Below are positions 56,808-59,198 of a DNA stretch of 64,000 bases, piece by piece. Each line of letters begins with the position of its first letter. The first letter of the stretch is position 1. Source of the stretch: Roseococcus sp. SDR (GTDB lineage: Bacteria; Pseudomonadota; Alphaproteobacteria; Acetobacterales; Acetobacteraceae); NCBI RefSeq assembly GCF_019083995.1, contig NZ_JAHRCU010000003.1, positions 62,001 through 126,000 on the forward strand, written 5' to 3'. The translations under genes and the position numbers were made by a program. The notes under the pieces are model-generated. The model had not been told where the DNA came from. It saw nothing but the letters and a program-made list of their open reading frames with translations, and did not search any database.

Positions 56808-56846
56808 AACCTATGCTTTATGCATATGCTCAGTCAAGGCATATGC
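56808..56846 (-). promoter_or_regulatory. Leftward early promoter (PL-like) with two operator palindromes
   Basis: On the minus strand TTGACT (56837-56832) and TAGGTT (56813-56808) form a sigma-70-like promoter with an 18-base spacer. One GCATATGC palindrome (56822-56829) lies inside the spacer and another (56839-56846) just upstream of the -35. This arrangement would let the CI-like repressor shut off the 18-gene leftward operon. Repressor binding is inferred. Confidence 0.65.
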
Positions 56847-56870
56847 TTTGATAACTCGGCTTTCCTTTTT

Positions 56871-57593
56871 TTAGGGTACCAGTTCGGACCACTCGAGCAC
56901 GCGAAAGCGGGCCAGAACTTTCCATCTGTTCATGTTGATCGGGGTTCGTGGCGCGTATTGCCGCCAGCCTTGCGCCGTATTCAGGGCAATGAAGGCGAGC
57001 GGTTCGTTGTTGGGTGCGAGCACGTCCGCGACCTCGACCAGGGCGTGATCGCCAGTGCGGATGGGGCGCGTCGGGTCCAGATAGATGCGCTCGCCCATGA
57101 CGCGCCATGGTGCCATGGAATCATCGGGCATGTACATGCAGGCGAGGGCCCGGACCCCCTGCGCGCCTGGTGGGCGCGTGGCGTAGGAGAGGGGCGTCCT
57201 GTTCAGGTGGAACAGATGATCCCATGCGCTCATCACCGCTCCCCATAGCGGAACGTCCGCTTCGCCAACCGGAGTGCGGGGCGGCAGGGCGGCAAGGGCC
57301 TTCACCGTTCGCTTGATCCCGGAGCGATCGCGCCCGAGCGGGAGACGCCGCAGGATCTGATCGGGTGCGGGGACATGCCAGGCGGTCGCCAGCGCCTGCA
57401 GCGTGTTCTGGGTCAATGGCTTGCCATTCTCCCACTTCATCGCCCGCGTCACGGCCGAGGGTGCGAGGCCGGCATGCGCGGCCAACTTGCTGGCGTTCGT
57501 CCCCTTTGTCCTTGCCAGGGTCTCGATCCACTCGCGCGCTGCGGCGTGCGCGAGCTGGTCCATGGCCGGGGTCTGGGCGGGCTTCAGCGTCAT
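56871..57593 (-). CDS. CI-like repressor (helix-turn-helix plus S24/LexA-like C-terminus)
   Basis: A 240-residue repressor. The N-terminal XRE-type helix-turn-helix lies at about residues 30-75 (NASKLAAHAGLAPSAVTRAM). The C-terminal half has the S24 peptidase-like motif MPDDSMAPW with Ser159. The position expected for the catalytic Lys (around AFIALNTAQG) has no Lys, so self-cleavage may be lost. ATG at 57593 is the likeliest start; 57563 or 57623 are alternatives. It diverges from a Cro-like gene and is flanked on both sides by GCATATGC operators. Confidence 0.88.
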   Translation of the reverse strand: MTLKPAQTPAMDQLAHAAAREWIETLARTKGTNASKLAAHAGLAPSAVTRAMKWENGKPLTQNTLQALATAWHVPAPDQILRRLPLGRDRSGIKRTVKALAALPPRTPVGEADVPLWGAVMSAWDHLFHLNRTPLSYATRPPGAQGVRALACMYMPDDSMAPWRVMGERIYLDPTRPIRTGDHALVEVADVLAPNNEPLAFIALNTAQGWRQYAPRTPINMNRWKVLARFRVLEWSELVP

Positions 57594-57613
57594 GCTGAGG
57601 GTGTGCGCCGTCA

Positions 57614-57621
57614 GCATATGC
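57614..57621. promoter_or_regulatory. Operator candidate at the repressor start
   Basis: GCATATGC palindrome 21 bases upstream of the chosen repressor ATG. Read on the minus strand its extended form TTTATGCATATGCT is identical to the site at 56822-56829, so two of the four sites share a 14-base extension. Position suits autoregulation. Confidence 0.6.
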
Positions 57622-57639
57622 ATAAAAAGCCCAAAGCTC

Positions 57640-57669
57640 TTGCGCTTAAGATTGATCTAGGCATATGCT
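57640..57669 (+). promoter_or_regulatory. Rightward promoter (PR-like) overlapping an operator
   Basis: TTGCGC (57640-57645) and TATGCT (57664-57669) form a sigma-70-like pair with 18-base spacing. The -10 lies within the palindrome GCATATGC (57661-57668). The expected transcription start, about 7 bases downstream, falls on the cro start codon at 57676. Confidence 0.55.
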
Positions 57670-57675
57670 TATTGC

Positions 57676-57882
57676 ATGAGCCAGGAAGATCAAATCGCCG
57701 CGGTTGAGGCCAAGCTGCAATCGGCTGGCGTTTCCGTCTCGGAGGTGTGCCGCCGCGCGGGCATTGACCGCGCCACCTGGCACCGATGGAAGCGGGAGGG
57801 CGACAAGCCCCGCGCGGCTACATGGGCGCGCGTCGAGGCCGTGCTGGCCGAAGTTCTGCCCGCCGAGAAGGTGGCCGCGTGA
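57676..57882 (+). CDS. Cro-like helix-turn-helix regulator
   Basis: A 68-residue DNA-binding protein (AAVEAKLQSAGVSVSEVCRR, then AGIDRATWHRWKREG), a compact helix-turn-helix covering most of the chain. It diverges from the CI-like repressor, the classical Cro position. No Shine-Dalgarno sequence is visible, and the predicted transcript starts at the ATG, suggesting a leaderless message. It converges with the WYL gene (8-base gap). Confidence 0.85.
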   Translation: MSQEDQIAAVEAKLQSAGVSVSEVCRRAGIDRATWHRWKREGDKPRAATWARVEAVLAEVLPAEKVAA

Positions 57883-57890
57883 TGCGGCCC

Positions 57891-58499
57891 TTAGAGATCC
57901 AGGTCGCGGGGGCGGCGCCTCGATGGTTGAGCGCGCAGCCATGCCTCGACGTCGAGGATCTCGGTTCCGTCCGTCAGGTCGAACGCATGCTGGACGCGCC
58001 GAATGAGGAACGACCGGTTGGCCTCGCGCACGTGGCAGCGGCCCCGAAAGGCGACGGGCGGCCCGTCTGGCCCCTCTTCCACCTTGAAGCTGCGCACGTC
58101 GACGTCGCGCTCGGTCAACTCGCCGTCGGCTGCGATGTACCTGATGCGGATCGGGGCTTCGCGCCGAAGGTCGAAGAAATCCGACGTCGCGCGCTTCTGC
58201 TTGGCGGCCTCGGCTTCGACCTCGGCCCAGTTCGTGTTGGGGTCGAGCAGCAGGCGCTCCAGCTTGGTGAATTCGCTTTCCGGACTGGGCGCGGCCTGCC
58301 CCCGCAAGCCGACCTGTGCTGCCTCGATCGCGGTCAGAGGCCGTGGCGCGATCGCTGGCGCTGCCGGCGGGTTCCGGCGCGGCGGCGGCTCTTCGACCGG
58401 CGGTCGCTCGGGCTCGCGGGAGATCGTCTGGCGCACGACGAACACCGCGAAGGCGATCATTCCAATCAGCGCGCCAACCAGCGCGACCTCCAGCGGCAT
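57891..58499 (-). CDS. Membrane-anchored WYL-domain protein
   Basis: A 202-residue protein. N-terminal membrane helix at about residues 5-23 (VALVGALIGMIAFAVFVV), then a Pro/Arg-rich linker and a helical segment (FTKLERLLLDPNTNW). The C-terminal 85 residues match the WYL fold: IRIRYIAADGELTERDV, VAFRGRCHVREANRSFLI and RRVQHAFDLTDG. WYL domains sense nucleotides or nucleic acids, normally in cytoplasmic regulators. A GAGGAG site supports ATG 58499. It lies antisense to the rightward early operon, so it is probably expressed in the lysogen. A GCATATGC overlaps its start codon. Confidence 0.75.
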   Translation of the reverse strand: MPLEVALVGALIGMIAFAVFVVRQTISREPERPPVEEPPPRRNPPAAPAIAPRPLTAIEAAQVGLRGQAAPSPESEFTKLERLLLDPNTNWAEVEAEAAKQKRATSDFFDLRREAPIRIRYIAADGELTERDVDVRSFKVEEGPDGPPVAFRGRCHVREANRSFLIRRVQHAFDLTDGTEILDVEAWLRAQPSRRRPRDLDL

Positions 58500-58578
58500 A
58501 TGCGCGGCTCCTCTTATGCCCACGCATGGTGCCAGTGCGGCGGCGTGAAATCCACAACATCGCGCGAGGCTGCCTGAC

Positions 58579-58740
58579 ATGGGCGGCCCGGTCTCCCTCG
58601 CCGAGCTGGTGGCGCGCGTCGTGGCGCATGTCGCAGCGCAGCGAGCGGGGCGGGGTGGTCTCCATGCGCCCATCGTTCCGCGTCAGCCGCGATCCGTCAG
58701 CCGGAAACGTTCCACCCGCAAGCGGAGTGAGGCGCGATGA
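58579..58740 (+). CDS. Small basic phage protein, 53 residues
   Basis: A 53-residue frame starting MGGPVSLAELVARVVAHVAA with a highly basic tail (SVSRKRSTRKRSEAR). The stop overlaps the next gene's ATG (ATGA at 58737), which supports translation. No family recognised. No good ribosome site is visible. Confidence 0.5.
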   Translation: MGGPVSLAELVARVVAHVAAQRAGRGGLHAPIVPRQPRSVSRKRSTRKRSEAR

Positions 58741-59198
58741 GCCCGTACCGTGACTTTCCTGATCGTCATCGCAGCCTGAAGGCGCTCACGCGGGCGTTGG
58801 TCGAGGGGTGTGGAGGCCTTTACGCCGCGGAGAAGTGCGTGCGGGTCAAGCATTCGCAGCTGGCCAACTACTACGACATGAAATGCGACCAGTTCGTGCC
58901 TGTGGATGTGGTGGCGGATCTGGAGGCCGTGTTGGGTGAACCGCTGGTGACGGCGGACCTCGCGCGACGGGCGGGGTGCATCCTGCTGCCCGTGCCCAGC
59001 GAGGGGGATGGCCTGCTGGCGCGGCATATCGCGCGCCTGGCGGACGAGGCCAGCCACGTTTTCTCCGCTTATGGCCACGCGATCGCGAATGACGGCAAGG
59101 TTGACCCCTCCGAGGCTGAGAAGCTCGAGCGAGAGTTGGCCGATGTGGTGCGCGTGGGCACGGCCGCGCTGGCGCATCTGCGGGCGGCGCGGCGGTGA
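58737..59198 (+). CDS. Phage CII-like regulatory protein
   Basis: A 153-residue protein resembling the phage regulatory CII family. The helix-turn-helix area reads GGLYAAEKCVRVKHSQLANY with FVPVDVVADLEAVLGEPLVT after it, followed by an Ala-rich helical C-terminus (SEAEKLERELADVVRVGTAA). In P2-like and lambdoid phages CII-type proteins influence the lysis-lysogeny choice. It overlaps the previous and next genes by 4 bases each. Confidence 0.8.
   Translation: MSPYRDFPDRHRSLKALTRALVEGCGGLYAAEKCVRVKHSQLANYYDMKCDQFVPVDVVADLEAVLGEPLVTADLARRAGCILLPVPSEGDGLLARHIARLADEASHVFSAYGHAIANDGKVDPSEAEKLERELADVVRVGTAALAHLRAARR

Follow-up and report, generated by a model that had tools for sequence, protein, structure and literature searches.

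A candidate membrane-anchored WYL-domain protein encoded at the cro tail of a temperate phage immunity region in Roseococcus sp. SDR

What might a WYL-domain protein do when a membrane helix stands in place of a DNA-binding part and its gene lies antisense in the immunity region of a temperate phage? The question is raised by a 64,000-nucleotide stretch of Roseococcus sp. SDR DNA (contig NZ_JAHRCU010000003.1, positions 62,001 to 126,000; hereafter the window), in which a leftwards-transcribed gene at 57891..58499, here named the transmembrane-WYL (TM-WYL) gene, encodes the 202-residue protein P0001. We read P0001, tentatively and as something possible rather than probable, as a candidate membrane-tethered, nucleic-acid-binding superinfection-exclusion factor of the lysogen; an exclusion or defence role fits best because of the predicted membrane location, the ligand pocket, the coding strand, the accessory look of the gene and its temperate-phage context.

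The TM-WYL gene

The open reading frame (ORF) runs from an ATG at 58499 to a stop at 57891, and its assignment draws on the frame, the structural model, profile matches and a codon-position test against C20, a second copy (paralogue) in the same genome with 61% identity to P0001 over residues 102–202. In the last 96 codons the differences between the two copies are distributed 26/19/49 over the three codon positions and the ratio of nonsynonymous to synonymous differences (pN/pS) is 0.41, whereas the antisense frames over the same codons give 1.41 (stop-free), 0.46 and 1.75 (the latter two each with stops in both copies). The frame of P0001 is therefore taken as the coding one, and the comparison shows purifying selection acting on that frame, which bears out the coordinates, strand and frame of the original prediction. 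That prediction, made from the window alone, had also given the gene its own ribosome site, and an AGGAG Shine-Dalgarno sequence lies 8 nucleotides upstream of the ATG (58508..58512, minus strand). The gene is on the same strand as the CI-like repressor candidate and antisense to the cro–cII transcript stretch, as had been claimed, and this arrangement is common to its relatives. Neither a sigma-70 consensus scan for promoters nor a terminator scan found anything, and an Rfam scan of the window stretch gave no match.

The WYL fold

The WYL domain corresponds to Pfam family PF13280, which has a gathering score of 21.8 bits. P0001 alone scores 12.2 bits, and because this is below the cut-off the assignment is not settled on this protein by itself; the C20 paralogue clears it (26.7 bits in one scan, 26.1 in another) and is among the seven of ten scanned relatives that do so. 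When a 19-row family profile was searched against the PDB, seven sequences matched at an E value of 1 or below. Five are named WYL regulators: PafBC (6.6e-6), PafC (0.0052), BrxR (0.34) and the CapW proteins of P. aeruginosa (0.0029) and S. maltophilia (0.26). The remaining two, which are the best matches, are the AAA ATPases 8bnv and 8bns, aligned at their C-terminal end (1e-7 and 3.5e-6). We take both to be helicases of the Pif1 type that end in a WYL domain; in them WYL is a helicase domain with no membrane part, whereas P0001 is predicted to be membrane-anchored. In PADLOC, P0001 and seven relatives match WYL models or, where the model is longer, its WYL end.

An AlphaFold2 model built from P0001 and eight viral-contig relatives has a mean predicted local distance difference test score (pLDDT) of 77.8 and a predicted template modelling score (pTM) of 0.48, with a poorly predicted linker. 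Its secondary structure comprises a helix at residues 2–26 and, further on, a helix at 91–102 followed by five strands within residues 106–174, the helix-plus-five-strand pattern of an Sm/SH3-like barrel. The strand codons, placed from the model and the profile, lie at 57978..58184 (minus strand) and include the predicted pocket residues Y121, R131, R158, R162, F164 and R168. Among PDB chains ranked by Foldseek, the first 18 are PafBC, CapW, BrxR and DriD, none at an E value of 0.001, and the top VIA-align match is a CapW complex with single-stranded DNA (ssDNA), 9c5g (Z 7.0, 62 residues aligned, root-mean-square deviation 2.3 Å). The first six VIA-align matches are all WYL proteins, YaeO comes seventh (Z 6.4), and further WYL proteins interspersed with Hfq/Sm proteins follow; ssDNA-bound structures of both CapW and DriD are among the structural matches.

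It could be argued that P0001 is not a WYL protein and resembles them by chance, given its own sub-threshold Pfam score, the lack of a PDB Foldseek match at E 0.001, and structural Z values that all stay below 8, a level that is not decisive alone. But the paralogue and other relatives score above the Pfam cut-off and named regulators make up five of the seven PDB profile matches, and we find chance similarity hardly credible. Membership is decisive because sequence and structural evidence combine, and on these grounds P0001 is assigned a WYL (Sm-like) domain; the fold proposed originally thus holds under both profile search and structure prediction. The likeness to PafBC, CapW, BrxR and DriD lies in the WYL barrel and in an R-x-F-x3-R pocket (CapW numbering). 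Unlike them, P0001 has no winged helix-turn-helix or WCX domain that we could find and carries a membrane helix instead, its family has mostly lost the W and Y of the eponymous motif, and its gene sits in a phage immunity region.

The ligand pocket

The predicted pocket is well conserved among the 19 family rows, with R131, C155, R162 and F164 present in all, Y121 in 18, R158 in 17 and R168 in 16, so that a conserved tyrosine accompanies an Arg/Phe/Arg ligand site. The spacing of R162, F164 and R168 equals that of Arg183, Phe185 and Arg189 (R-x-F-x3-R), which together with Tyr145 form the proposed ligand site of CapW (PMC9122588). PafBC is activated by ssDNA, and mutation of PafB R181, Y196, R204/R208 and R211/R214 leads to loss of ssDNA binding (PMC11804915). 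R158, R162 and R168 share the spacing of PafB R204, R208 and R214, and R131 may correspond to R181, the residue mapping from P0001 to PafB being inferred from spacing. By this mapping the barrel keeps most of the ssDNA-binding arginine pocket of PafBC, and for that reason it most likely binds ssDNA or another nucleic acid.

The membrane anchor

No HTH (helix-turn-helix) family match was found N-terminal to the WYL domain of P0001; the region is occupied instead by a membrane helix at residues 2–26 (codons 58422..58496, minus strand), predicted by hydropathy and by the AlphaFold model, and by a low-confidence, proline-rich linker leading to the WYL domain. The proposal of a single N-terminal membrane helix replacing the DNA-binding part therefore stands. 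Membrane segments were called over 19 residues at a hydropathy of 1.6 or more. There are no lysines or arginines before the helix and three in the 15 residues past the best 19-residue segment, a pattern seen in nine of nine single-helix proteins checked (none before, two to six in the next 15 residues; L078 and L097 in this set come from the class-wide search described below, and L077 lay outside the check). Because of this charge distribution the topology should be N-out, with the WYL domain at the cytoplasmic face.

Of the 26 loci with this type of WYL protein (selected as described below, window included), 17 encode one to four membrane segments, which disposes of the objection that homologues might always be cytoplasmic, although five at the same locus lack a helix. 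The copy in phage phiAP1 has two segments (hydropathy 2.62 and 1.97). We also note a viral-contig protein (L114, 2685–2825) related to just the first 46 residues, the membrane part, of the L111 protein; in it the anchor may be joined to a different C-terminal part.

Distribution and synteny

The 397 genomes of the profile searches below belong to the same bacterial family, which is taken to be the Acetobacteraceae. Scans with P0001 or with a two-row alignment (A3) found no close homologues in genome contigs, viral contigs or plasmids, and a scan of a phage collection returned phiKM1 (E value 1e-2) and two Streptomyces phages (2e-2 and 8e-2). A single-protein search matched seven of 294 genomes, its own included, among which the matches in G027 and G235 looked like chance on inspection; a viral contig (L107) was likewise rejected as a relative. 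The profile search reached 99 of 397 genomes at an E value of 0.001. From it 32 places were retrieved, most by score and four (L069–L072) for a short open frame, comprising six HTH-type loci, which stand outside the synteny count, and 26 of the present WYL type, the window included. These 26 were thus chosen by profile score or open-frame length and not by neighbourhood; L048 duplicates L047, and L059 is cut at the contig start.

In 21 of the 26 loci the WYL gene and a small gene, in most cases HTH-like (cro-like), converge, and the small gene is divergently transcribed from a CI-like one, with another gene intervening in L051; this cro-tail arrangement is missing in L046, L054, L056, L059 and L064. 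The survey of gene neighbourhoods that the original prediction called for thus places TM-WYL relatives at a recurrent position, with membrane helices in the proportion given above. Eight of the ten cro candidates scanned match HTH, YdaS or Cro entries at E 0.01; those of L052 and L053 have no such match. Most of the WYL proteins have one WYL domain, but by profile matches the L047 protein has two and the L044 protein three.

The WYL gene is also present, with the same gene order, in phages phiAP1 and phiKM1, both sequenced from mitomycin-induced particles; the order is taken from annotation in phiAP1 and includes an unannotated cro ORF in phiKM1. According to PMC8566455, these are the two of six phages predicted to be active, and a prophage-cured host strain exists for one of them: the phiAP1 lysogen is A. 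pasteurianus NBRC 109446 and its cured derivative is C-27. No plaques are formed by phiAP1. GenBank lists the phiAP1 gene as phiAP1_190, with the product name 'WYL domain protein', and the phiKM1 gene as phiKM1_140, named 'DNA-binding transcriptional regulator YafY'; both belong to the present family and occupy the same locus, and each product has two N-terminal hydrophobic segments. phiKM1_140 (L146, 7431–7796) is annotated from an internal start, whereby the membrane part is dropped; an upstream ATG (record 7940) adds the two segments. The WYL protein of phiKM1 has exactly the sequence encoded in genome G320, one of the genomes searched, and it is on this ground that their family is taken to be the Acetobacteraceae.

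A search of the wider class with alignment A2 matched 89 of 337 genomes, mostly with alignments that stop short of the C-terminal extension, in the manner of HTH-type WYL regulators. Eight class loci were inspected: a helix is present in L077, L078 and L097 and absent from L076, L079, L080 and L100, and L092 is HTH-type. The four without a helix combine this WYL type with a further C-terminal region that appears TerB-like by eye. No CI/cro pair was seen near the TM-WYL genes of the three loci with a helix, nor near that of L046.

Occupancy of the cro-tail position

Whether the position is dedicated to the WYL gene was approached from the repressor. The 397 genomes were searched with a CI profile built on five loci that carry the WYL gene, and 13 of the 16 best places were inspected; the other three are L048 and L069, already known to bear WYL genes, and an additional CI at the L121 locus. 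A WYL gene is present in three of the 13 loci with a related CI; in the other ten none was found by sequence pattern in the 1.5 kb examined, the stretches of L126 and L128 being short and cro unrecognised in L119. A 60-residue pattern match in L128 was judged spurious. The sole clear replacement is in L124, where a DUF4145 protein (385–1194; 1.7e-9) ends with its stop 5 nucleotides from the cro stop. L122 has an 83-residue orphan ORF (860–1111) 87 nucleotides from the cro end, overlapped by an ORF on the opposite strand, and in L121, L123, L125 and L127 the gene after cro is on the early strand, with CI-strand ORFs further out. CI-strand ORFs near cro include one for a phrog_3983-like protein in L121 (250–531) and two in L127 (48–332 and 657–968; DUF3892).

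The TM-WYL gene looks accessory, in keeping with the layout first proposed, and this is favoured over an obligatory switch component because ten of the 13 related-CI loci show no WYL gene and L124 carries DUF4145 in its stead, a case less strong than many replacements would make it. A partner required by every phage with such a CI is rejected on the same count of ten loci. The same count weighs on two further explanations. In one, TM-WYL would be part of the lysis–lysogeny switch: transcription of its gene would run antisense through cro toward CI, as lambda PRE transcription does, and the protein would sense ssDNA or RNA and feed back. The retention of the gene with CI and cro types that are dissimilar speaks for such a role, but besides the ten loci in which no WYL gene was found, no promoter-like site was given by the sigma-70 consensus scan and the membrane anchor is left unexplained; we consider it somewhat unlikely, though worth keeping in view. 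In the other, the protein would tether the phage's own DNA to the membrane as a replication, segregation or packaging site, with the WYL barrel as an ssDNA grip. A pocket of the ssDNA type and a gene in the early region would suit this, but the gene lies on the strand opposite to the early genes and, again, is not seen in ten of 13 loci, and we give the idea little credence.

A candidate exclusion factor

The exclusion reading can be set out as a sequence of steps. An accessory gene at the cro tail, on the repressor strand of a temperate phage immunity region, would encode an inner-membrane protein with its N terminus outside, in which one helix and a proline-rich tether hold a WYL barrel at the cytoplasmic face. 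The barrel, judging from its pocket, would bind ssDNA or another nucleic acid; in phage-carrying cells it might, at the membrane, capture or sense the DNA of a foreign phage as this enters or replicates, and so block infection by that phage. Prophage exclusion genes such as P22 sieB and lambda rexAB offer a parallel, since they too are encoded near the repressor and specify small membrane-associated products; to our knowledge neither has a WYL domain.

Several observations weigh against this reading. No effector domain was found in P0001, and the fixed position at the cro tail also suits a regulatory role. Relatives with the same locus layout in L060, L062, L063, L065 and L069 lack a membrane helix, and three of the eight class loci inspected, outside the family, have helix and WYL with no CI/cro pair seen, so that the anchor is not tied to phages. 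At the positions of two PafB residues named above, P0001 has L165 (R211; arginine or lysine in seven of 19 rows) and A150 (Y196; tyrosine in two of 19 rows). The W-Y-L motif itself retains W in none and Y in two of the 19 rows, with I, L, F, M or V at the third position in all. The six HTH-type loci retrieved by the profile search likewise have no W at that position, and its loss is for that reason rejected as a sign of HTH loss.

It is possible, if rather doubtful, that these proteins form a new class of nucleic-acid sensor, built in one piece and placed in the membrane: there would be an antisense accessory slot at the cro tail of temperate phages of this bacterial family, whose recurrent cargo would be a WYL protein that binds ssDNA, is tethered to the membrane and guards the lysogen, in many relatives behind a covarying double-hairpin leader on the start codon that would control such antisense genes. 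This would be a phage-borne family in which the DNA-binding part was dropped and an ssDNA-type pocket tethered to the membrane, turning nucleic-acid sensing into a lysogen-protection or decision device within one small protein. WYL proteins in the literature surveyed are cytoplasmic regulators or enzyme modules. No membrane-anchored phage WYL protein is described among the matches listed for WYL domain, prophage, acetic acid bacteria phage, CapW/ssDNA, superinfection exclusion and leaders, in largely non-subscription literature available in part, nor in the excerpts of PMC4012209, PMC9122588, PMC9122601, PMC9503650, PMC9879122, PMC8566455 and PMC11804915; a search combining WYL, superinfection exclusion and temperate phage found nothing.

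The immunity region and its operators

The neighbours of the TM-WYL gene were labelled from position and HTH similarity. The CI-like repressor candidate (56871..57623, minus strand, likely start 57593), divergent from cro, has weak HTH matches only (best E value 0.016, to PHROG repressors), and its product shares 45% identity with the CI candidate in L045. The cro-like small HTH gene (57676..57882, plus strand; HTH_Tnp_1, 7.4e-7) is convergent with TM-WYL, with 8 nucleotides between them, and a CII-like activator gene follows at 58737..59198 (plus strand; phrog_101, 4.8e-16).

The sequence GCATATGC occurs five times in the window, against a shuffle mean of 1.21 and with none of 100 shuffles reaching five, and all five copies fall within 56822–58503. 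Two lie past the CI stop (56822..56829 and, 17 bp from it, 56839..56846; both OL-like), two in the CI–cro gap (57614..57621 and 57661..57668) and one at the TM-WYL start (58496..58503), overlapping the ATG as first reported. By repeat count and matrix, the first four, with AT-rich flanks, make good candidates for CI/Cro operators, arranged around CI in the manner of OL and OR, and L045 has two plus two sites with the same 17-bp spacing. A matrix made from eight sites (four from L045 and the four window sites, which are thus in its training set) scores these four at 21–26 bits and the start-codon copy, which has the operator core only and unmatched flanks, at 0.8 bits. In several other loci a palindrome of the CI–cro gap recurs past CI, with none at the WYL start in the rows shown.

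Direct CI/Cro control through the start-codon GCATATGC, with the gene off in lysogens, would accord with the confinement of all five copies to the immunity region. But the start-codon copy lacks operator flanks, and no copy lies at the start of the WYL gene in L045, whose operators are the same; such control seems improbable. Because of the matrix scores and of L045 this copy is probably not an operator, its standing as a proven one is rejected, and the significance first attached to it is not supported.

A double-hairpin leader in relatives

Upstream of many TM-WYL relatives, at the start codons of antisense early-region genes, lies a double hairpin of about 79 nucleotides. It was modelled from seven copies, and covariation was assessed on 28 distinct aligned copies, partly including the training sequences, in an alignment fitted to the model and containing a few matches opposite another match's strand. 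On this basis 17 of 21 pairs have changes on both sides, and covariation is 0.345 against 0.102 when shuffled and at most 0.059 when slid. Rfam gave no plausible match for the hairpin in six loci scanned, and two microRNA matches in relatives were far below the gathering score and away from it.

Four strong copies matched the model in phiAP1 (L145; 7242–7320 and 8009–8083, minus strand) and the first 49,999 bases of phiKM1 (L146; 7938–8016 and 9492–9570, minus strand), with three weaker ones elsewhere (E values 0.04–0.62); each strong copy lies at most 16 nucleotides from the start of one of four minus-strand genes after cro, TM-WYL included. A genome scan yielded 16 copies in 11 of 200 genomes. 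For 13 of the 16, an ORF of at least 40 residues starts between 30 nucleotides before and 8 after the element end, which is weak alone, ORFs being common. Other hairpin loci are L061, L104–L106, L109–L112, L150–L155 and L158–L162. The hairpin was not found at the TM-WYL gene of the window (best match in L003, 5.9 bits, E value 1.3); at the paralogue locus (L012) the first hairpin matches about 200 nucleotides upstream on the other strand (15.3 bits, E value 0.0055).
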